From a virus, in IMG/VR virus record IMGVR_UViG_3300033064_000522, positions 1 through 44,190 of that record: a stretch of DNA of 44,190 bases; one strand, 5' to 3'. The translations under genes and the position numbers were made by a program. Position 1 is the first letter of the stretch. Every line of letters begins with the position of its first letter. This document shows positions 7,795 through 42,483 of this stretch, piece by piece. Under the pieces are notes generated by a model. The model was not told where the DNA came from. It saw only the letters and a program-made list of their open reading frames with translations, and did not search any database.

Positions 7795-10700
7795 TGATAA
7801 CAGCCTCCGAATCTTTAAAAAATATATTTAAGCAACAAAAGTCTATTAAGGCCGACGTTGGTTGCGAAATAGAATACAACATGAACTCTTTGATTGATGG
7901 GATAACAGTAGTTTCTGCAACAGCAGACTCTACCTATACTTCTCAAATATCTGGGTGGCCTTCAGGTAAAGCAAATCCATATAAGAAATTGTTTCCAATT
8001 GATTCTATTTTAAAACCTTTTAGGCCAACACAATCTGGAATTAAATATTTTGTTTTTTTACCCAATGATACAGTTGCAAATAGCTTTTCTTCATATAGGG
8101 CATTACAGTATCCAGGAACTCAACCTAGACTTTATTACCCTGGAGTAACAACACAATACAAATATTGGCTAAGCGCAAAAGATGCTAATGTTAATATAAC
8201 AGTTAACTATCTAACAACAGGGCTGCTTGGCAATAAGAGTGCTCTATCAAATAAAATTATTGTTAGGTTTGAGAAGTACCACACCTTACCAACCACATAC
8301 TCTTTAGTAATTACTAAATCAGATAACAGTACCCAGTCAGTCGGACCTTTCTCTACGCCAACAGACGGCAACGTAGAATTAAACTATAATGGAACTTCAT
8401 GGACCCAAGGAGCTTTATCTGAGCCCGTATCCTATGCAACACCAATATTAATTAAATCAATTAACTTAACTGCAATTAATCCTGGCGGGGGCAAAGTAAT
8501 AGGAGTAATTGAAGTATCTGCCAGACTAGTAAAAGACATATCTTCTGATATCGTTAAGATAGATATTCAAAAAGAATCCTCATCTTCAGCAGAAGACATA
8601 TTACCAGTTGGATTCGTTAGCGCAAACAGCATAAACCTTGAGCTCGTTAAATACAACCAGTCAACCATGCAGACAGTTCCATACAATAGGTTGTCCACAT
8701 CCTTTGACTCATCTTTAATTTACATGTCTAAAAATGCAGAGATTAGACCATACTTTAAAATATATCATTCTGGTGCAACCACAGTTGCTGGATCATATGA
8801 TAAAGTAAAGCAAGGCATGTTTTATGTTAATGATTTTAACATCAGCGCATATGGGGAGACCACAGTATTTGCTCTAGATGGATCTAAGTATTTAATGGAC
8901 ACTCTGTGCCCAGACGTAATTTGCGAGAACTATCCAGTTACTGCAATATTAAGAAGGCTGTTAGATTCAGTAGGATTTGCAAATTATAATTTTAATTTAA
9001 ATACAACTTCAGAGGTCTCTATTCCTCAAATAGATTACTGGTGGACAGATGATTCTAAAACTGTATGGGAATCAATTCAAGAGCTATGCAGAGATATTCA
9101 AATGAACGCCTTCTTTGATGAAAACAATGTTCTTCAATTTTACAGCAGAGACTATATATACGATAACACAAGAACTAGCCAATGGGATTTTTATAGCGAG
9201 CCAGAAGGATCTACGCTTCCTAACATTATAGAGTTTGTTCAAAAAGATATTGTCGGGGCCAACTTTGTTAAAGTTTTATGGGATGCGGCTATAACCTCTA
9301 ACTACACTGGAACCTCAGGAGATCTATGGAGAGCGCCAACAACATTTTTAAGCGCTGGCGGACTCTTGACTTCCCTGACAGAATCAGACGACACCTATCT
9401 AACAATAGATACTAAGTCTTTAGATGTTTATGCTCAACAACAATCCTTTTACAATTTTGCAGGATTCGTTTTAATTGATTCAGAAATTATAGAGTATGAT
9501 GGAATAGAGTATGACCTAACCCTACTAAATGGAACAAAAGAAACTCAATTAATAAAATCATCTTCTGATGTTAACAAGTATAGGGCTTTATCTAAAGCAG
9601 GATATGCTGACGAAACAAATCCAGCAGATACCGCATATTTTAAACCTAGCGGTCGTTATAAGATTAAAAAAAGAGGAGCTCTAGGAACCGTAGCAGCAGC
9701 ACACTCTGCACAATCAGCTAATTTAAATAACTGGACCCCAGTAAATGTTTCATGGAATTCTAAGCAGCCATCTACTTCTGGAACATCAGTAACTGCATCA
9801 GGACTAGATCTTTACTATACATTAAGACCAAAGCAAATATCTCTTACTAGCGTAGAACTAGATTTTGTTGTACCATCAATTGCTCCAACACACTATTTAG
9901 TATCCGTTCAATTATTAAATTCTGACAACTCTAACGATGGCCCAGCAATTGCTTTAGCACAATATACAAATCAGATCCCATTGGTAGTTACAAACCTGTC
10001 CCCTGGAGAAAAATATACTTTTAGAGTTACTCCTAAAAATGGCGCAGATACATTTGGAAACTCTATGACAAGTCCTATATTTACTATGAGCGAGACTTCA
10101 TCTGGAGGAGGCATATCTTCTAGTTTTATAAATTCAGCAACCATAGTTCCGCAAAAATCTTATTTTAAATTAACAAACAGCACAAGCGATAAAGATAAGT
10201 ATGTAATGGCATATAGAGATTTTCAAGGAATTACTCTGGCTTCGGCAACAGTTAATGGTAGCTACGCTCCTTATTCTTATCCAACAAACAATTATTCTTT
10301 ATCCTACTACTCTTTTGGGACTAGCGTATTTTTAGATGCAGATGATAGATCAAAAGGATCTTCTGCTGGACTAGGATTTTTTGTAAACGATTTAGGAAAG
10401 ACAGGATATTTTGTAGTTGTAGAAACAACCAAGTCTTCTACTTTAAAAGAAACAAAATCTGTTAGAATCTTAAAGGCAGACGGAGTTGGAGTACGTGTGC
10501 TAGCAGATTCTCAAAGAACTGCTTCTTCTACTTTTGAAGGTGTGTTTGGAGGAACTCAGTATAATATTGATGCAAGAGTTAAGGTTGATGGAAGCTCTGT
10601 AACAATTAATGTTTCTATTAATGGATATAAAATTAATGCCACAGACACTAACTCTAATCTTAATGCTAAAGAAACTAATAAGATATTGGCTCCAACCAAA

Positions 10701-11453
10701 TCAGTTGCAATTGTTTGCGGGAACGGATCCGTAGCTTTTGATTATGCTTATGGCACTAATATGACAGAGACTAAGTATCAAGAATCTCTAGTTGATCCAA
10801 ACTTATATCTAGCACAGTATTCAAATGACTTGCTTGACATGTCCTTTGGGGACCTATTCTATGACGCAAACAACTCAGACAATACTCTAAAAAGCCAGAC
10901 AGTAGATGACTTTGGTACGGTAGTCAGAGAAATTTATTATGTAAAAACTAAGTTAAACGCCAGACCCGCCTTCCCAGTAAGATGGTCTACATCAGACAAT
11001 AGGTCTGTAAATTTAATAGGCCAGAAGTTTTCTAACTTTGAGGCAGAAGCATATGTTTTAAATAATACGTCTACCACTATTCCATTAAGTGACGGAGGCA
11101 AAGCCTCTCTATATATATTTGGCAATGAGATAAATTCATCTGGAACCCTAGAGTATTCTACAGATGATAGTCCCGAGTATGTTAATAAAGAGCCAGTAAT
11201 TTTTGAATCAAGGTGGTTACAGAATCAAAAAGATGTTCAAAATCTAGCCAATTTTATAAAAACTAAAGCTATTAACAAAGGTAAGGTTATTGATATAGAT
11301 ATATTCGGCAACCCGTTGCTTTCAATAGGGGACATAGTGTCTATAAAGTATACCTATCAAGGCCTCCTGGGTACCGAAAAAATGATAATTACAAACATAT
11401 CACAATCTTTTGAGGAAGGAATAAGTACCTCCATTAAGTGTAGAACCATTTAG
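7794..11453 (+). CDS. Minor tail protein / baseplate hub with FN3 and jelly-roll inserts
   Basis: A 1219-residue protein, ATG overlapping the preceding stop by one base (TAATG). Residues about 330-500 look like a hub or Tal-type domain (KYLMDTLCPDVICENYPVTA, then a WESIQELCRDIQMNAFFDEN stretch). The last 60 residues (GNPLLSIGDIVSIKY ... STSIKCRTI) resemble the end of such hubs. Between them sit a fibronectin type III domain (about 680-765, LSPGEKYTFRVTPKNG) and a laminin-G/concanavalin-like jelly roll (about 780-990, YNIDARVKVDGSSVTINVSI). It probably closes the tail tip and contacts the host surface, with the inserts as possible carbohydrate-binding arms. Confidence 0.75.
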   Translation: MITASESLKNIFKQQKSIKADVGCEIEYNMNSLIDGITVVSATADSTYTSQISGWPSGKANPYKKLFPIDSILKPFRPTQSGIKYFVFLPNDTVANSFSSYRALQYPGTQPRLYYPGVTTQYKYWLSAKDANVNITVNYLTTGLLGNKSALSNKIIVRFEKYHTLPTTYSLVITKSDNSTQSVGPFSTPTDGNVELNYNGTSWTQGALSEPVSYATPILIKSINLTAINPGGGKVIGVIEVSARLVKDISSDIVKIDIQKESSSSAEDILPVGFVSANSINLELVKYNQSTMQTVPYNRLSTSFDSSLIYMSKNAEIRPYFKIYHSGATTVAGSYDKVKQGMFYVNDFNISAYGETTVFALDGSKYLMDTLCPDVICENYPVTAILRRLLDSVGFANYNFNLNTTSEVSIPQIDYWWTDDSKTVWESIQELCRDIQMNAFFDENNVLQFYSRDYIYDNTRTSQWDFYSEPEGSTLPNIIEFVQKDIVGANFVKVLWDAAITSNYTGTSGDLWRAPTTFLSAGGLLTSLTESDDTYLTIDTKSLDVYAQQQSFYNFAGFVLIDSEIIEYDGIEYDLTLLNGTKETQLIKSSSDVNKYRALSKAGYADETNPADTAYFKPSGRYKIKKRGALGTVAAAHSAQSANLNNWTPVNVSWNSKQPSTSGTSVTASGLDLYYTLRPKQISLTSVELDFVVPSIAPTHYLVSVQLLNSDNSNDGPAIALAQYTNQIPLVVTNLSPGEKYTFRVTPKNGADTFGNSMTSPIFTMSETSSGGGISSSFINSATIVPQKSYFKLTNSTSDKDKYVMAYRDFQGITLASATVNGSYAPYSYPTNNYSLSYYSFGTSVFLDADDRSKGSSAGLGFFVNDLGKTGYFVVVETTKSSTLKETKSVRILKADGVGVRVLADSQRTASSTFEGVFGGTQYNIDARVKVDGSSVTINVSINGYKINATDTNSNLNAKETNKILAPTKSVAIVCGNGSVAFDYAYGTNMTETKYQESLVDPNLYLAQYSNDLLDMSFGDLFYDANNSDNTLKSQTVDDFGTVVREIYYVKTKLNARPAFPVRWSTSDNRSVNLIGQKFSNFEAEAYVLNNTSTTIPLSDGGKASLYIFGNEINSSGTLEYSTDDSPEYVNKEPVIFESRWLQNQKDVQNLANFIKTKAINKGKVIDIDIFGNPLLSIGDIVSIKYTYQGLLGTEKMIITNISQSFEEGISTSIKCRTI

Positions 11454-11459
11454 GTTCTA
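11441..11459 (+). terminator. Hairpin at gene end, weak terminator or insulator
   Basis: TAGAACC (11441-11447), loop ATTTA and GGTTCTA (11453-11459) form a perfect 7-bp stem with the stop codon of the hub gene in its loop. No T-run follows, so it may pause or partly insulate transcription rather than terminate it. A promoter begins directly after it. Confidence 0.4.
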
Positions 11460-11462
11460 AAA

Positions 11463-11471
11463 TGGTATAAT
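11463..11471 (+). promoter_or_regulatory. Extended -10 promoter, leaderless start
   Basis: TGGTATAAT is an extended -10 with no good -35. Six bases separate it from the ATG at 11478, so the predicted +1 is the A of the ATG. The 18 bases 11461-11478 recur exactly at 25438-25455 before recA. Confidence 0.7.
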
Positions 11472-11477
11472 AATAAA

Positions 11478-12284
11478 ATGACAAAAAGCTCAGTGCCAAA
11501 AAGAATTAAGAGTAAAGATGTTGTTCCTAAGGGATCGATAATCTTAAAAAGCACCAGCCCAGATCTACTTTGGGTAGGAGCTAACCCAAGCGTAGTAACT
11601 TATGATGATACTGGATATGAGCTTAATAAATATTTAGGTGGACCAGTAGAATCAGAAACAGCAAGCGATGAATTAGAATTAGAAAACTTATCGGTACAAG
11701 GAAGTCTAGAACTTTCAGAAATAGATACTGTAGATATGACAGATATTGAAAATGTAACCTTTGAAGAATATTTTGACTTATCTACTAAAATTACCAAGTA
11801 TAATGTTTATATTAAAATAAGAAATGGTAGTTCAAAATCAGCATCCGTTGCTGGCGTAGACGCAAGAATTTATGATGCCGCCGCTTCTTCATATGCACCT
11901 AGCTCTACTCCAGTATATGAAAACCCTGCATCTTTTATAACACCAACACCAAGCATACCGTCCGTAATATTTAAAAGAGATGGGACAGCAATTGCTTGGG
12001 GATGGGATGACTCATCTGACTTTGGATCATATTCATCAATATATTACGAATGGATAATTACAACATTAAAATCTGGAGGAACTACAATTAGCGAAGGTTC
12101 TTCCGCTTACCCTTCTTCATCAAGTTATGCAATTGGCAGTAGCGGTAAAACAAAAAAGTATAGAGTTAGTTCTTCTCAAGGAGATACGCCATCTAGCGCT
12201 TCAGAAAGATGGCTTAAAGTTAGAACAGTAGTTGTTGGAACAAATAGTAAAAAATACTATTCAGCATACTCTACTGCAATTTAA
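11478..12284 (+). CDS. Tail accessory protein, unknown
   Basis: A 268-residue protein, ATG immediately after a leaderless-type promoter and without a Shine-Dalgarno. The N-terminal 50 residues are basic and then hydrophobic (VPKGSIILKSTSPDLLWVGA), and residues 55-95 are acidic. Residues about 145-268 form an Ig/FN3-like beta domain (IYYEWIITTLKSGG, ERWLKVRTVVVGTNSKKYYS). It lies between the hub and the fibre genes, so a virion surface or tail-tip role is likely. I do not recognise the family. Confidence 0.5.
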   Translation: MTKSSVPKRIKSKDVVPKGSIILKSTSPDLLWVGANPSVVTYDDTGYELNKYLGGPVESETASDELELENLSVQGSLELSEIDTVDMTDIENVTFEEYFDLSTKITKYNVYIKIRNGSSKSASVAGVDARIYDAAASSYAPSSTPVYENPASFITPTPSIPSVIFKRDGTAIAWGWDDSSDFGSYSSIYYEWIITTLKSGGTTISEGSSAYPSSSSYAIGSSGKTKKYRVSSSQGDTPSSASERWLKVRTVVVGTNSKKYYSAYSTAI

Positions 12285-30146: not shown

Positions 30147-30171
30147 TTTTTTAGTCGACTAAGAGTATAAT
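30143..30171 (+). promoter_or_regulatory. Terminase promoter with palindromic operator candidate
   Basis: TTGATT (30143-30148), a 17-base spacer and TATAAT (30166-30171), then exactly six bases to the ATG at 30178 (leaderless). A perfect 12-bp palindrome TTAGTCGACTAA (30151-30162) fills most of the spacer and is a likely repressor site. A weak hairpin AAATCA/TGATTT (30135-30149) overlaps the -35. Confidence 0.8.
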
Positions 30172-30177
30172 CTAAAC

Positions 30178-30717
30178 ATGTCTGAGATAGAGTTATCCGC
30201 CCATTTTGACCGAATGAACAGAGTAGTGTCAGAATTACTAAAAGGAAGCAATCCCACCCAAATCGCCGCTATAACGGGTTTTAAGAGGGGTGACGTAGTT
30301 GACCTTATAGATGACTGGAAAAATGTTATTCATAACGACACAGGGGCACGTGAGAGGGCTAAAGAGGCTATCTCAGGAGCAGACCAGCATTATGCAATGC
30401 TAATCAAGGAAGCTTGGAAGACCGTAGAGGATGCCGATCAGGCGGGACAACTAAATGTTAAGGCTACATCCCTAAAGCTAATTGCAGATATTGAAGGCAA
30501 AAGAATTGGAATGCTTCAAGAGGTAGGCCTGCTAGACAATGCCGAACTTGCAAATCAAATTGCAGACACAGAGCGTAAGCAAGATATCCTAGTAAAGATA
30601 TTAAAAGAAGTTACAGCGTCTTGCCCTAAATGTAAAATAGAGGTGGCAAAAAGACTTTCACAAATTACTGGAATTGTAGAACCAATTGAGATAATTGAGG
30701 AAGTAAATGGACCTTAA
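30178..30717 (+). CDS. Terminase small subunit
   Basis: A 179-residue protein. The N-terminal HTH (residues about 24-48, PTQIAAITGFKRGDVVDLID) is of the DNA-recognition kind used by TerS. A long helical middle (KEAISGADQHYAMLIKEAWK) would form the oligomerisation ring, and the C-terminal part carries an isolated CPKC pair. It overlaps the large subunit by 11 bases. It recognises phage DNA for packaging and should be expressed from its own leaderless promoter. Confidence 0.75.
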   Translation: MSEIELSAHFDRMNRVVSELLKGSNPTQIAAITGFKRGDVVDLIDDWKNVIHNDTGARERAKEAISGADQHYAMLIKEAWKTVEDADQAGQLNVKATSLKLIADIEGKRIGMLQEVGLLDNAELANQIADTERKQDILVKILKEVTASCPKCKIEVAKRLSQITGIVEPIEIIEEVNGP

Positions 30718-33869: not shown

Positions 33870-33906
33870 TGATATAATCTTCATGTAACAAAAATTTTGT
33901 TGCATG
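33870..33906 (+). promoter_or_regulatory. Promoter with 25-bp palindrome at transcript start
   Basis: TGATATAAT (33870-33878) is an extended -10. A near-perfect 25-base palindrome (33882-33906, CATGTAACAAAA / TTTTGTTGCATG, one mismatch) follows. The transcript would begin near 33885, so the palindrome is either an operator or a 5' stem-loop directly before the GGAG of the next gene. Confidence 0.65.
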
Positions 33907-33915
33907 GAGACCCAA

Positions 33916-35982
33916 TTGAGTAGAAAGATAAAATTATTTCTGGCTGGCCTGTTTGTAACTGGTTGGCTATTTTTTATAGGCCCAACTTATGCGTGGGCGA
34001 CAGAGCAAGGCGGACAAGAACAAGTAGTAGTAAGTCCAGCGCAAGTGGCGGTAAATACAACCATTGCAACAGCCACCACTGAAGTTGCACAAGCAGTATC
34101 AGCATCAGAGTCTGCAACTGCAATAATTGCAACTGCGGTTCAAGCAGTAACAACATCTAACACGGCCGTATCAGCAGCAAACACTGCAGTCACTGCAGCA
34201 ACTATTGCGGTAGCAGAAGTTCCTTTGCTTATAGAAACAGCAACTACTTTAATTCAATCAGCACAAACATCAGTAGAGTCAACCGCAGCAACTGTATCGG
34301 CAGCAAATACTGCGGTGGTAGCAGTATCTCCAGCCCTAGCAGAGGCTCAAACACAATTAACTCAGGCAAACGTTGCAATTAATACTGCTCAAGATGCAGT
34401 AAATGATTTGGTAGCTACAGTTGGCACAACATCAAATGTTTTAGCAAATACAGATGACGCAGGAATTCTTATGAATTTACCATTTAATTTACAATTAGGT
34501 GGAGTTACATATTCAAATGTTTATGTTAGTTCTAATGCAACAATAACTTTTGGTGTCAATGAAGGACAAAACTACTCTTCTACACCTAATGCTCCTTCAA
34601 TTTCTGTGGCAGGTTACGATTGGACTACGTGGAGCAATGGCTCTGGTATTACTTATTCAACAACAACTAACACCCTGTCTATTGCTTGGGATGTTCGTGT
34701 ATTTCCTTTAACAACAGCAGAAACACAGATGACTCAAATTAGATTTAATGCAGATGTAAATCCATCAGACAGTGCTTGGTCAGCAGACATAAGTGTTACT
34801 GGACCAATACCAAACGGAACAAGATTCAACGTAAGAGAAGTTGCTGGCGGAGCAATAACTAATACTCCAGATACAAATGCTGGTTCTGGATATAACGCAA
34901 CAATTAGTCAAGGCGCTGCATTTATCCCTACCCCCGATCCAGACAATGCAACGGTATTGGCAGCAATTGATACAGCAAATGCACAAATTGCTGCGTTAAA
35001 CTCAGCAATTACAGCAGTTGTTGCAACAAATACAGCAAATACAAATACAGCTATTGCACCAATAGCAACTGTTTCACAAAATATTTTAACTGCATTATCG
35101 ACAGCAGCTACATTCTTAGCCACAAAGTTAGCAGAGGTAGCACCGCCATCTTTGGTTTATACTGCACCAACACCACCTGAGCCACCCGCAGAAGAGCCAC
35201 CAGTAGTAGAGCCACCCGCAGAAGAGCCACCAGTAGTAGAGCCACCCGCAGAAGAGCCACCAGTAATAGAGCCACCTGCAGAAGAGCCACCAGTAATAGA
35301 GCCACCTGCAGAAGAGCCACCACTAACTGTAGAGGAAATTGAAAACATTATTGATGAGCTAGTTTCTACTGGAGAGTTATCTAACTCTGATTCAGAAATT
35401 ATTTTAGATGCATTAAGAGCAGATGGAGAGATTACATCTGATGAAGTTAGTGCTCTTTCTGAAGCTTTATCTGCTGATGGCGAATTTACTAGCGAAGAAG
35501 TAGCATTAGTTGTAGAGGCAATTATTGAGGCAGCGGATGGGGAAGCAATTACGGCAGAAGCTATAACAGATGCTGGACTTACCTATAATGACTTGCCAGA
35601 AGCTACCCCCGTTGAAGTAAGGCAGGATGAGAATGGAAATTCCGTTATAATAGTAGCAGAGATAGCGGCAGCTTTACAGGTGCTTGAATCTCCAGCAAAA
35701 TTTGTTTCAGCAGTATTTAATGATCCAGGACAGGCACTAACAGCTGTATTAAATATTGGTGCTGACATGAGTGATGAAGAGCGTAAAGGCGCAGAAGAAA
35801 TGATAGTTTCTGCAATTATTGCAAGTAATGCTGCAATTAACGCAGTTAGCGTTGCAGGAAATGCTGCCGCAAATGCTGCATCATCTGCATCTAGAACGGC
35901 AACTGGAGGAACAACTCCTAAAGGACCAAGCGGCGGTGGACCAATGGGTGGAGATCCAAGAATAAGGAGAAGAAAACCATGA
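33916..35982 (+). CDS. Large secreted surface protein with Pro/Glu repeats
   Basis: A 688-residue protein. TTG 33916 is chosen because GGAGA lies 6 bases before it; an ATG at 33904 overlaps the palindrome and would add METQ. The N-terminus is a signal peptide or anchor (LFLAGLFVTGWLFFIGPTYA). Residues 30-170 form an Ala/Thr-rich coiled coil, 175-335 a nidogen-like or jelly-roll domain (YSNVYVSSNATITFG), then EPPAEEPPVV repeats (422-469), EF-hand-like acidic helices (ADGEITSDEVSAL, ADGEFTSEEVALV) and a Gly-rich basic end (RIRRRKP). It is probably exported. It lies just upstream of the lysis genes, so a role in envelope change or lysis is possible. Confidence 0.7.
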   Translation: MSRKIKLFLAGLFVTGWLFFIGPTYAWATEQGGQEQVVVSPAQVAVNTTIATATTEVAQAVSASESATAIIATAVQAVTTSNTAVSAANTAVTAATIAVAEVPLLIETATTLIQSAQTSVESTAATVSAANTAVVAVSPALAEAQTQLTQANVAINTAQDAVNDLVATVGTTSNVLANTDDAGILMNLPFNLQLGGVTYSNVYVSSNATITFGVNEGQNYSSTPNAPSISVAGYDWTTWSNGSGITYSTTTNTLSIAWDVRVFPLTTAETQMTQIRFNADVNPSDSAWSADISVTGPIPNGTRFNVREVAGGAITNTPDTNAGSGYNATISQGAAFIPTPDPDNATVLAAIDTANAQIAALNSAITAVVATNTANTNTAIAPIATVSQNILTALSTAATFLATKLAEVAPPSLVYTAPTPPEPPAEEPPVVEPPAEEPPVVEPPAEEPPVIEPPAEEPPVIEPPAEEPPLTVEEIENIIDELVSTGELSNSDSEIILDALRADGEITSDEVSALSEALSADGEFTSEEVALVVEAIIEAADGEAITAEAITDAGLTYNDLPEATPVEVRQDENGNSVIIVAEIAAALQVLESPAKFVSAVFNDPGQALTAVLNIGADMSDEERKGAEEMIVSAIIASNAAINAVSVAGNAAANAASSASRTATGGTTPKGPSGGGPMGGDPRIRRRKP
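35179..35320 (+). repeat. 30-bp in-frame tandem repeat, about 4.7 copies
   Basis: Copies begin at 35179, 35209, 35239, 35269 and 35299 (partial). Each encodes EPPAEEPPVV or EPPAEEPPVI. Copies 1 and 2 are identical, and the later ones differ at one or two bases, suggesting recent expansion. The product is a stiff acidic Pro-rich spacer typical of wall-spanning stalks. Confidence 0.9.
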
Positions 35983-36154: not shown

Positions 36155-36160
36155 TATAAT
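36155..36160 (+). promoter_or_regulatory. Leaderless -10 of the lysis unit
   Basis: TATAAT 36155-36160 is followed by exactly six bases and the ATG at 36167. No good -35 is visible. Confidence 0.6.
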
Positions 36161-36166
36161 AGGATT

Positions 36167-36364
36167 ATGAAGAAACTAATCCCTATTGCTTTATCAGGCA
36201 TACTAATGCTATCCTTAAGTGGATGCGGCTATGACGGTAATTATCGTTATCCATGCCAAGATCCAAAAAATTGGGAATCAGCAGAGTGCAAACCACCAAT
36301 CTGTACAGCTAACGGGGCTTGTCCAGAAGACTTAGTAGAGATGAAGGAGCCAACAAATGGCTAA
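36167..36364 (+). CDS. Small lipoprotein
   Basis: A 65-residue protein with a type II signal: basic MKK, hydrophobic PIALSGILMLSLSG and lipobox LSGC (Cys20). The mature part has four further Cys (CQDPKN, ECKPPIC, ACPED) and is acidic. It would be lipid-anchored outside the membrane. In the lysis region it may be an Rz1-like partner or a superinfection-exclusion protein; these are inference. Its start is leaderless, and it overlaps the next gene by 8 bases. Confidence 0.75.
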   Translation: MKKLIPIALSGILMLSLSGCGYDGNYRYPCQDPKNWESAECKPPICTANGACPEDLVEMKEPTNG

Positions 36365-38326: not shown

Positions 38327-38560
38327 ATGCTACATTTAAAACCGCTTGGGGTAGAGGTATTTATATCCAAATCTCAATCTAATCAACTAGACTCATACTG
38401 GAATAATTATGATCTTATGTTGTGGAAAAAAACCCACTCTGGATTTTTTAATGTAAAAGGTTTATTTAGAAAAAATTCGTGGGGAATTGTTGAAAAATTT
38501 TCAATGACCAATGATGGCACATGGGTGCTTCCAAAAAAATATGTCAGATATCTTAAATAA
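38327..38560 (+). CDS. Protein upstream of WhiB, unknown, 77 aa
   Basis: A basic, aromatic-rich 77-residue protein (WNNYDLMLWKKTHSGFFNV, KNSWGIVEKFSMTNDGTWVL). The RBS AGGG is weak. It overlaps the WhiB gene by 20 bases and shares its promoter, so the two products are probably made together. No family is recognised. Confidence 0.55.
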   Translation: MLHLKPLGVEVFISKSQSNQLDSYWNNYDLMLWKKTHSGFFNVKGLFRKNSWGIVEKFSMTNDGTWVLPKKYVRYLK

Positions 38561-38852
38561 TTTAGGGGTAGACCAGGAAGATTTTGAATGGTGGCACCTG
38601 TCCGTATGTAGGGGCATGGACACCAACCTATTCTACGATAAGTATGAGATAGATAACAATATTGCAAAAAATATAGATGAAGCATGTTTATCATGCCCAG
38701 TTATAGATATTTGTTTTAAAAATGGCACAACTAACGATGAGTACGGAGTTTGGGGTGGAGTGTATTTAAACGCTGGATTAATTGATAAATCTAGAAATCT
38801 ACATAAAACCGCAGAGGTTTGGAAAAGGTTGAAGAAAAAAAATGTTTATTGA
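38541..38852 (+). CDS. WhiB-family Fe-S transcription factor
   Basis: A 103-residue protein from ATG 38541; an in-frame ATG at 38511 is possible. Four cysteines, C23 (SVCRGMDTNLF), C49-x2-C52-x5-C58, fit the 4Fe-4S ligand pattern C-xn-C-x2-C-x5-C, followed by the family turn GVWGG (69-73) and a basic C-terminus (WKRLKKKNVY). WhiB proteins bind the principal sigma factor and redirect transcription. Phage versions are known to disturb host WhiB regulation. It may sense redox or NO or switch the phage genes. Confidence 0.9.
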   Translation: MSDILNNLGVDQEDFEWWHLSVCRGMDTNLFYDKYEIDNNIAKNIDEACLSCPVIDICFKNGTTNDEYGVWGGVYLNAGLIDKSRNLHKTAEVWKRLKKKNVY

Positions 38853-39601: not shown

Positions 39602-39607
39602 TATAAT
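39602..39607 (+). promoter_or_regulatory. -10 element, near-leaderless
   Basis: TATAAT 39602-39607 lies 8 bases before the ATG at 39616. A second TATAAT (39612-39617) overlaps the start codon. No -35 is obvious. Confidence 0.45.
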
Positions 39608-39615
39608 TAGGTATA

Positions 39616-39936
39616 ATGAATCAATCTTCCCTTATTATTGCTATTTGTGCCGCTATATTGAGTGGCATGGGTACAGCCATAATTGCAGGACTTAGAGATA
39701 ATGTTAAAGAAAAAAGAAGACAGGTTGAGCGAGACCAAGACCATTTAAGGCTAGAAGTTAAAGACCTTAAAATTGAATTATATAAAATTGATCGTGAATT
39801 GACTGAATGGAAAGATAAATACTATAATGCCATTCAAGAATTAATTCTTGTAAAAGCAGAGCTGGAGAGCACCCTGTCTCAGCTTGACCACATAGAGCAT
39901 CATTCTGAGTCACTGGACACAGAATTTTTAATTTAG
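39616..39936 (+). CDS. Single-TM coiled-coil protein (Rz-like topology)
   Basis: A 106-residue protein: an N-terminal helix SLIIAICAAILSGMGTAIIA (about 5-24) followed by a long Glu/Lys-rich coiled coil (RDQDHLRLEVKDLKIELYKI ... ELESTLSQLDHIEHH). This resembles i-spanin or stalk proteins in topology. In a monoderm actinobacterium the role would differ, for example membrane anchoring of a partner. Confidence 0.55.
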   Translation: MNQSSLIIAICAAILSGMGTAIIAGLRDNVKEKRRQVERDQDHLRLEVKDLKIELYKIDRELTEWKDKYYNAIQELILVKAELESTLSQLDHIEHHSESLDTEFLI

Positions 39937-39942
39937 TATACT
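39914..39942 (+). promoter_or_regulatory. Promoter of the proteasome-like gene
   Basis: TGGACA (39914-39919), a 17-base spacer and TATACT (39937-39942). Seven bases separate it from ATG 39950, so the transcript starts at or one base before the start codon. Confidence 0.7.
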
Positions 39943-39949
39943 ATGAAGT

Positions 39950-40519
39950 ATGACCGCTGTCGTAGCCTTAATTCACGAAAACAAAGTCCTCCTTGGGGGA
40001 GACTCTGCTGCGTCTGATGAAAAAAGTGGACTCATATTTCAAAGAATAGATCCAAAGGTTTTTAAAATAGGACAATTTGGTATAGCATTTGTAGATAGTT
40101 TTAGAATGGGTCAAATTTTACAGTATAGCTGGACCCCTCCTGTTTACAAACCTACTGTTGGATTTAAGAACTTAGATAAATTTATGAGAACAAAATTTAT
40201 AGAATCAATTAAAGAAACATTTAAAGAACATGGTTACGGAAATCAAAACCCAGGATCAACTGATGATGGCGATGAAGGCGGAGTATTCTTAATAGCAGTT
40301 CAGGGAGCGGGAAGAGTATTTGTAATGGATACAGATTTTCATATTGGGGAAGCAGATGTTCAGTATATGGCAGAGGGAAGTGGTCAAATGCTAGCCTTAG
40401 GTTCTCTTTTCTCTACTTCAGCAGTTAAAGCACCTCGTAAGCGTGTTAGAATAGCATTAGAAGCGGCAGCAAAATTTAACATGAATGTAAGGCCACCGTT
40501 TACAATAATTGAAATTTAG
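39950..40519 (+). CDS. Proteasome-beta-like Ntn-hydrolase
   Basis: A 189-residue protein. After Met removal it starts T1-A-V-V-A and has D17 (GGDSA) and a Lys at 35 (DPKVFK; K33 in proteasomes), then a GSG near 142-144 (AEGSGQMLALGSL), the site of the oxyanion Ser in beta subunits. This is the T1/D17/K33 pattern of proteasome beta and HslV. It lacks the pro-peptide of bacterial PrcB (Met-Thr only) and is shorter (HslV about 175). Actinobacterial hosts often carry proteasomes. It could be an independent peptidase or interfere with the host 20S core. Confidence 0.7.
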   Translation: MTAVVALIHENKVLLGGDSAASDEKSGLIFQRIDPKVFKIGQFGIAFVDSFRMGQILQYSWTPPVYKPTVGFKNLDKFMRTKFIESIKETFKEHGYGNQNPGSTDDGDEGGVFLIAVQGAGRVFVMDTDFHIGEADVQYMAEGSGQMLALGSLFSTSAVKAPRKRVRIALEAAAKFNMNVRPPFTIIEI

Positions 40520-40527
40520 AGTATACT
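40499..40527 (+). promoter_or_regulatory. Leaderless promoter
   Basis: TTTACA (40499-40504), a 17-base spacer and TATACT (40522-40527), then exactly six bases to ATG 40534. The -35 lies in the last codons of the proteasome-like gene. Confidence 0.75.
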
Positions 40528-40533
40528 AATACC

Positions 40534-40743
40534 ATGGACATGAATAACTTGAGACCAACAGACTATTCAAAAGCTATGGATTTAAGAGGCACTCCTACAC
40601 ATGTGTGCCCATGCGGAGGATTTGTCTGGAACGTTAAAGTTGTATTTTATGAATCAGAAATTGCACAATATTTTTTGGACATGGAATGTTCAAATTGCGG
40701 TAGCCTTGCTACTGCCCCTACACCAGAGGACAGACTTATATGA
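40534..40743 (+). CDS. Small zinc-ribbon protein, 69 aa
   Basis: Two CxC/CxxC knuckles (VCPCGG and ECSNCGS) about 27 residues apart, with aromatic beta strands between (FVWNVKVVFYE). It is probably a zinc ribbon without signal. Leaderless start, no SD. It overlaps the next gene by ATGA. Confidence 0.6.
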   Translation: MDMNNLRPTDYSKAMDLRGTPTHVCPCGGFVWNVKVVFYESEIAQYFLDMECSNCGSLATAPTPEDRLI

Positions 40744-40913: not shown

Positions 40914-40942
40914 TTGACAGATCTTTGCCGATTTAGTAAAAT
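40914..40942 (+). promoter_or_regulatory. Leaderless consensus promoter
   Basis: TTGACA (40914-40919), a 17-base spacer and TAAAAT (40937-40942), with exactly six bases to the ATG at 40949. This is the best -35 among the leaderless set. Confidence 0.85.
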
Positions 40943-40948
40943 TAAGGC

Positions 40949-41542
40949 ATGACAAAAAAACTATTAGTATCAATATTAACAATTGTTTCAACGGTAACCG
41001 TAATGTTGCCTTCTGTTGCAAACGCAGAAAGCCCATATTACACTAAAAAAGAATATCAATCTAATAATAAAACAGATTCCTACTACTGGGCAAGCTTTGT
41101 CCTAGATTGGAACGTATTTCAGTCTGTATTCTTAGTTCCTAAAACTTATACTACTGTAGTAACAAAAACAGAAGTAGTCCCAGCAACTGAGACTGCTTCA
41201 GAAAAAACTATTACTACTTCAAGTACAGTTGAATCAGATCCATATTTTTATCCTAAAACTACCATTACAGATGTTAGTCATGGCTGGGCTCCTAAGGGAG
41301 ATCCAATTATTCCGACTAATGCCACAGATCCAACTCAATTATGTTCAACGGGCTGTGCAGGTACAAACGGATCTGTAGGATACGCTCCAGGAGAAATTGG
41401 TTATAACGATGGAGTCAAAGTTATTACTAAAGATTATAGTACTGGCAGAATTTATGAAACTTATAATTTTGACAAGGTGAACAGCAGTTGGGTTGCTATG
41501 GGATGCGATGCATCTCCTACAGCAGGCTGCTTTACTAAATAG
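40949..41542 (+). CDS. Exported protein, unknown
   Basis: A 197-residue protein with a clear Sec signal peptide (basic MTKK, hydrophobic LLVSILTIVSTVTVMLP, cleavage after ANA near residue 26). The mature part has Thr/Val-rich repeats (YTTVVTKTEVVPATETASEK) and four Cys near the end (LCSTGCAG ... GCDASPTAGC) that may form disulfides. No enzymatic motif is seen. It is a strong leaderless gene, immediately before a secreted protease, so the two may act together. Confidence 0.7.
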   Translation: MTKKLLVSILTIVSTVTVMLPSVANAESPYYTKKEYQSNNKTDSYYWASFVLDWNVFQSVFLVPKTYTTVVTKTEVVPATETASEKTITTSSTVESDPYFYPKTTITDVSHGWAPKGDPIIPTNATDPTQLCSTGCAGTNGSVGYAPGEIGYNDGVKVITKDYSTGRIYETYNFDKVNSSWVAMGCDASPTAGCFTK

Positions 41543-41550
41543 AAATAATT

Positions 41551-42483
41551 ATGCGTAAACTATTAGTAGCGATTTTATTATTAGCCCCATCTTTTTCCCA
41601 TTCGGCAAAAGCTGAGACTTTTTCATTTCCAACAATTGCTATTATAGATACAGCAATTAACCCATCCTTAGAGTTATTCAAGGACAGAATTTTGCACGAA
41701 GTTTGTTTAATTAATTTAGACCCAACGTACAACTCTTGTCCTAATGGATCTAACATAATGGAAGGTCCTGGTGCTGCAAGCTTGCCATTAAACATAATTA
41801 CAAAAAATGGGTTTGAGCACGGAACTCAAATGTCAGCTCTTGCAGTAAGAACAAATCTAACTGTAAAAATTGTTTTCATTAGAATTATTGGATACAATCA
41901 AGACGGCTCACGCCAAATTTCTGGAGAGTCTAGCCTAAACAACGCTTTAGACTGGGTGTATAAAAACAAAGAAAAATTTAATATACAGGCAGTTTCTATG
42001 TCTCAAGGGCATCATAATTTAGGGGTTGCTGGAACAGATTATTGCCCTAAAACTCCTATTACTGAAAACAAGATTAATGAATTGATAAGCATAGGAGTTC
42101 CTACATTCTTCCCTGCAGGAAACGGCAGAGACTATCAAAGAATTGATTGGCCTTCCTGTATACCCTCTTCTATTGCAATAGGAGCAACTACGCCAGAAAA
42201 ATCAATTGCTATCTATTCTAATTTTGATCCAAATCTTGTAGACTTTTTTGTAAGAGGATCTTATAGAACTACTAATCCTGATAGCACACTTAAAAATATT
42301 GCAGGAACTTCTGCTTCAACAGTAGTTGCAGCAACTCAGTGGGCTACTGTAAAAAACAATAGACCTAACTTAAACTATTTAGAGGTATACGATATATTCT
42401 CTAAAACATCCATCCCTGTATCAAATTCAAAAATTACAGGTGGCAAACTAACAAACTTTGAAGGAGCTTTCTATGCCAAATGA
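41551..42483 (+). CDS. Secreted subtilisin-like (S8) protease
   Basis: A 310-residue protein with a Sec signal (LLVAILLLAPSFSHSAKA, cleavage near 21). The triad is D33 (AIIDTAI), H90 (FEHGTQMSAL) and S254 (AGTSASTVV), with oxyanion N191 (PAGNGR) and the S1 strand VSMSQG. No pro-domain is evident between the signal and catalytic part, which is odd for a subtilase. It would work outside the membrane on cell-surface or competing-phage proteins. No SD; it follows the exported protein by 8 bases. Confidence 0.88.
   Translation: MRKLLVAILLLAPSFSHSAKAETFSFPTIAIIDTAINPSLELFKDRILHEVCLINLDPTYNSCPNGSNIMEGPGAASLPLNIITKNGFEHGTQMSALAVRTNLTVKIVFIRIIGYNQDGSRQISGESSLNNALDWVYKNKEKFNIQAVSMSQGHHNLGVAGTDYCPKTPITENKINELISIGVPTFFPAGNGRDYQRIDWPSCIPSSIAIGATTPEKSIAIYSNFDPNLVDFFVRGSYRTTNPDSTLKNIAGTSASTVVAATQWATVKNNRPNLNYLEVYDIFSKTSIPVSNSKITGGKLTNFEGAFYAK

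Follow-up and report, generated by a model that had tools for sequence, protein, structure and literature searches.

A conserved proteasome-like Ntn-hydrolase gene in a probable actinophage

What kind of peptidase does a phage encode when one of its genes resembles a proteasome subunit, and what might that peptidase do during infection? The question is raised by a gene on the plus strand at positions 39950–40519 of a 44,190-nt stretch of viral DNA (IMG/VR record IMGVR_UViG_3300033064_000522), the whole of which we refer to as “the window”. The gene has an ATG start and encodes 189 amino acids with the N-terminus MTAVVALIHENKVLLGGDSAASDEK. It was originally predicted, from the letters alone, to encode a proteasome-beta-like Ntn-hydrolase of a phage with an actinobacterial host, with three possible roles: a peptidase of the phage's own, a decoy subunit, or an inhibitor of host proteolysis.

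The family assignment depends on profile methods. Pfam gave zero matches for the protein, even at E ≤ 1, and a single-sequence search of the PDB returned one weak, unrelated match. In PHROGs, the protein is a member of phrog_1040 (PHROG_1040, “peptidase HslV family”; E = 9.8e-11). When a profile of 25 relatives was used, the PDB ranking was led by BPH, the betaproteobacterial proteasome homologue (1e-8), followed by HslV (about 5e-7) and then by 20S beta subunits. An AlphaFold2 model from the same 25-relative alignment (pLDDT 88.4, pTM 0.85) is an alpha-beta-beta-alpha sandwich with helices at residues 51–60 and 75–93, and it ends at the last strand (residues 185–188), with the C-terminal S12/H5 extension absent. 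Foldseek placed BPH first for this model (E = 2.8e-10, TM 0.71–0.72), then HslV and 20S beta subunits, with over a thousand matches having E below 0.001; against viral models, the top matches reached TM 0.85, among them a protein named HslV and another from a Gordonia phage. Comparison of a predicted structure with PrcB and HslV, the check proposed with the original prediction, thus does recover an Ntn fold. For PrcB itself, the score with the NCBIfam model 20S_bact_beta was 17.2 bits (E = 0.003), far short of the 191.9-bit cut-off. On sequence and modelled structure, the protein is assigned to the proteasome-like Ntn-hydrolase superfamily and, within it, to group I, i.e., nearer to HslV and BPH than to the 20S alpha and beta subunits. 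Relatives are widely scattered among phages: tblastn found 31 phage records, every one with <60% identity, from phages of Vibrio, Aeromonas, Geobacillus, Moorella, Pseudoalteromonas, Tenacibaculum, Xanthomonas and other hosts. No chromosomal relatives were found in two scans of a genome collection, and PADLOC gave no match for the protein or its paralogue (see below).

The predicted active site is strongly conserved. Numbering from the threonine that follows the initiator methionine, the predicted nucleophile is Thr1 (codon 39953–39955), with Asp17 (40001–40003), Lys35 (40055–40057) and a GSG turn at residues 142–144. Asp17 and Lys35 are invariant in 53/53 distinct homologues, drawn from viral contigs and named phages with about 26–87% identity. 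The nucleophile column of the same set has Thr in 49, Ser in one and a gap in three, the gaps reflecting ORFs that were trimmed to an internal Met, at least two of which have Thr at position 2; Thr1 is invariant in alignment A5. Lys35 lies two residues further along than the catalytic Lys33 of BPH and HslV, with which it pairs in the profile alignment. The Thr1/Asp17/Lys35 site of the original prediction therefore holds up, including its proviso that Thr1 and the lysine be conserved among homologues. The GSG turn is a different matter: it is present, but its Ser, which corresponds to Ser129, is replaced by Ala in 39 of the 53 homologues, including most close relatives. The position aligned to D166 is Asn in the window protein and variable among relatives, and the variation at these two positions indicates that the accessory residues are under a different constraint from the catalytic ones. 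Purifying selection on the gene is strong, with a median pairwise dN/dS of 0.07 (52 same-length copies; synonymous sites nearly saturated). Across 80 related contigs, no other gene of the cassette matches it in median identity (84%, versus 41–78% for its neighbors).

The upstream sequence bears on both the expression of the gene and the maturation of its product. A promoter at 39914–39942 (plus strand) consists of a −35 TGGACA, a 17-nt spacer and a −10 TATACT, and 7 nt separate the −10 element from the ATG. All 37 distinct upstream regions from relatives have a TAxxxT −10 element at this fixed distance, and with few exceptions it reads TAGTATACT or TAGTATAAT; this agrees with the near-leaderless promoter first proposed. 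Because promoter-like sites in the region are as frequent as expected by chance (18 observed, 17.9 expected), the evidence for this promoter lies in its conservation and fixed spacing, not in its match to a consensus. Since the ATG is directly 5′ of the Thr codon and the −10 box is just upstream, the protein has no propeptide, as had been supposed. A second promoter of the same type (TTTACA, 17 nt, TATACT; 40499–40527, plus strand) precedes the gene at 40534, and the genes at 40534 and 40949 have a promoter layout like that of the gene at 39950. Elsewhere in the window, −10-like boxes lie 6–8 nt before an ATG at 11466–11478, 30166–30178, 36155–36167 and 39602–39616, as they do at 39914–39950, 40499–40534 and 40914–40949. 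The sequence suggests that leaderless, gene-by-gene transcription may be widespread in this phage.

The genomic context points to the host. A WhiB-like regulator is encoded at 38511–38852 (plus strand; PF02467, E = 2.3e-9) and is found at the expected offset in 76 of 80 relatives; WhiB has been described as restricted to actinobacteria and used to call actinophages (PMC6802176). The window also encodes a tape measure protein, a minor tail protein, a DnaB-like helicase, a primase, SSB, DNA polymerase III alpha, a RecA/UvsX-like recombinase and a terminase. The terminase is 59–62% identical to those of Streptomyces phages of the Stanwilliamsviridae, and the gene order helicase-primase-SSB-polymerase-RecA-exonuclease-terminase is shared with phage Gilson. 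WhiB and the terminase together support the view that the window is from an actinophage with an actinobacterial host, as originally proposed. A freshwater habitat is only our guess, from the literature (PMC6802176) and from DSL-LC01, a phage of lake origin (PMC10611076). When three of the Streptomyces phages whose terminase is similar were searched, no homologue of the peptidase was found; this search lacked its own positive control, though related models recovered every known copy. The gene is therefore probably not core to the wider group, judging from these genomes. Among deposited actinophage isolates, distant homologues labelled “protease” are carried by Microbacterium phage Pumpernickel (gene 135) and by the Arthrobacter phages Hum25 (gene 81) and Pitbull.

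Within the window's own clade, the surroundings of the gene are stable. The order WhiB, small proteins, coil-like protein, zinc-ribbon-like protein, subtilase and thioredoxin, together with the peptidase gene, is conserved across the 80 related contigs. The syntenic upstream gene (39616–39936, plus strand; PHROG_10127, unknown function) encodes a hydrophobic N-terminal segment and a charged region that looks coil-like by eye. The syntenic downstream gene (40534–40743, plus strand; 78/80 relatives) encodes a small protein with two Cys pairs that is zinc-ribbon-like by eye and has no family match in PHROGs or Pfam. The subtilase (Peptidase_S8, E = 7e-16) is encoded at 41551–42483, has a signal-peptide-like N-terminus, and is syntenic in 74/80 relatives with a median identity of just 47%. 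Further upstream, a 692-aa protein with no PHROGs family (33904–35982) precedes a gene for a CHAP-domain lysin; it has a weak extensin-like (proline-rich) Pfam match, below the cut-off, and a relative (L128 3394–5823) has long VEEPP repeats. The distant phage homologues of the peptidase are often near genes of nucleotide metabolism and replication (loci L084, L085, L086, L088, L089, L090, L091, L125 and L127; noted without a background rate), including those for ribonucleotide reductase, thymidylate synthase, ThyX, MazG, PhoH and dCMP deaminase.

How would such a peptidase work? Homology, fold, active-site residues, selection, promoter and context lead us to lean, somewhat beyond even confidence, toward an active, ATP-independent group I Thr-peptidase, probably a BPH/HslV-like double ring gated by an acidic loop. 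Host methionine aminopeptidase would cut off the Met and expose Thr1, which would be activated by Asp17 and the Lys33 equivalent. The likely assembly is a double ring like that of HslV and BPH, which would enclose the active sites. Residues 94–112 (40229–40285, plus strand), which include the motif DDGDE, connect the second helix to the next strand and align with the pore loop of BPH in the profile alignment. They thus form a counterpart of the elongated acidic pore loop of BPH, although in a region modelled as flexible and with low confidence (pLDDT 54–75 over residues 91–110). Entry would be controlled by this loop instead of by a dedicated AAA+ unfoldase, in which case cleavage would need no ATP. 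During infection, the substrates could be peptides, unfolded proteins or one specific protein, and the substrate set is best read as restricted. Several observations count against this explanation: purified BPH binds epoxomicin yet is inert on standard substrates (PMC5777263), the D166 position is Asn, and the Ser129 position is mostly Ala.

The search for an unfoldase is consistent with such gating. In 16 records, comprising the window and its relatives, which are mostly genome fragments, no AAA_2 domain of the HslU/ClpX type turned up; in the window and its 14 relatives, the latter again genome fragments, no AAA domain scored above the cut-off. AAA matches do occur in DSL-LC01, an actinophage that is more distant. 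Table 1 of PMC8665760 has no HslV mark for Actinobacteria, so an HslU partner supplied by the host is unlikely. Against this gating, an unfoldase may be encoded elsewhere in the phage genomes, and host unfoldases could serve the peptidase.

Other readings of the gene have to be weighed against an ATP-independent chamber. One that is rather improbable, but that we take seriously, is an Ntn enzyme of high specificity, perhaps a monomer, i.e., a processing protease or connectase-like ligase that acts on a single phage or host target. A precedent is connectase, a monomeric ligase among proteasome homologues (PMC8665760); the extreme diversity of the phage homologues in the tree, the lack of an unfoldase partner in the records searched, and the inertness of the group I relative BPH on generic substrates also fit. 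However, the two-helix insertion near the active site that marks connectases is absent from the model, whose helices and compact core fit the ring-forming BPH and HslV. The roles first linked to the host 20S proteasome and Pup tagging, as a decoy subunit or inhibitor, fare worse, and we regard them as very unlikely. They suit an actinobacterial host, and the match to 20S_bact_beta does reveal distant kinship with PrcB, but the closest relatives in sequence and fold are BPH and HslV, leaving decoy and Pup-pathway roles unsupported. In addition, the protein retains catalytic residues that a decoy would not need, and the family extends to phages of Vibrio, Aeromonas, Geobacillus and Moorella, hosts that are not known for 20S proteasomes. 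Of the three roles initially listed, a peptidase of the phage's own is the best, there being no evidence for the other two. We give similarly little credence to a virion maturation (prohead) protease. A maturation protease is a common requirement among phages, and the window is from a tailed phage, but the gene is outside the structural module and near WhiB, with tail genes at 1–15 kb and the terminase at 30.7 kb. Moreover, its counterparts in other phages are often among replication and nucleotide genes, and the search of related Streptomyces phages with a similar terminase gave no match. We rejected both the decoy and the prohead-protease ideas on fold, conservation and gene position.

A further possibility is that the protein is one subunit of a hetero-oligomer, paired with a paralogue in the manner of proteasome alpha and beta. 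A divergent second homologue, which we call type B, is present in 4 of 20 related records, about 6–12.5 kb downstream of the type A gene: G016 (11119–11640; L097), G017 (9786–10307; L098), G019 (91837–92358; L099) and G001 (90582–91112; L100). Type B proteins have intact Thr1, Asp17, Lys33 position and GSG, and they retain Asp at the D166-aligned position. Aeromonas phage 2L372X likewise has two adjoining genes annotated “peptidase HslV family” (L090; 6001–6552, and 115500–23 across the record start). Nevertheless, we consider pairing of this kind extremely unlikely. Most contigs, even those of 110–115 kb, show one copy, as does the window, although it ends 3.7 kb past the gene. In the tree, the four paralogues group with other actinophage homologues, whereas type A takes in the clade of the window together with most of the Firmicutes and Proteobacteria phages. 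The split between the two types has support of 95/81, and their relationship is distant, the finer details being unsure because several branches are long.

The wider implication of an ATP-independent peptidase would be that an actinophage clade encodes its own proteasome-like chamber, in some lineages with two catalytic subunits (A and B), that removes host proteins or recycles amino acids during infection; we consider this whole scenario distinctly unlikely. In this clade of at least 80 viral contigs, the gene is nonetheless strongly conserved and its active site is intact, and the homologues of Pumpernickel, Hum25 and Pitbull could be tested genetically. The feature is real, well conserved and of a known kind; its interest is in the biology of the peptidase in infection and in the two-paralogue lineages.

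How does the protein compare with known systems? Among solved structures, the best match by both profile and fold is BPH (PDB 5ovs/5ovt/5ovu), which shares Thr1/Asp17/Lys33, the compact core, a long acidic loop leading from H2 into the next strand, and the lack of a known unfoldase; in BPH, the acidic loop lines the pore of a 14-mer (PMC5777263). The two are only 19% identical, and the window protein is phage-encoded and has Asn at the D166-aligned position. HslV (ClpQ) is similar in fold and active site, with about 15% identity, but it has a short linker where the window protein has the long acidic loop, and no HslU-type unfoldase was found in the 16 records, mostly genome fragments. Actinobacterial PrcB shares the Thr nucleophile and the fold, but the window protein is far under its curated cut-off and lacks a propeptide. 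PHROG_1040, to which the protein belongs by profile, is a broad family named from remote homology, and no characterised member was found in the literature searched, nor was any experimentally characterised phage proteasome homologue. Fuchs, Alva and Lupas described two propeptide-less homologues of bacterial group I in tailed phages, PPH and AAH, with neither genomic context nor an AAA+ partner hinting at function (2021; PMC8665760). PPH has about 140 residues and no helix H2, whereas the window protein is 189 residues in length and its second helix is long; we rejected identity with PPH on this length and on the two modelled helices. AAH is a better fit by size and distribution, as compared by description rather than by sequence. 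The authors of that survey reported finding no Actinobacteria-specific phage that carries AAH. The finding was first framed as unusual, but its class is already represented in PHROGs and in the 2021 survey. Phage proteasome-like peptidases are already known in many phages, and the protein encoded at 39950–40519 is a well-supported further example.
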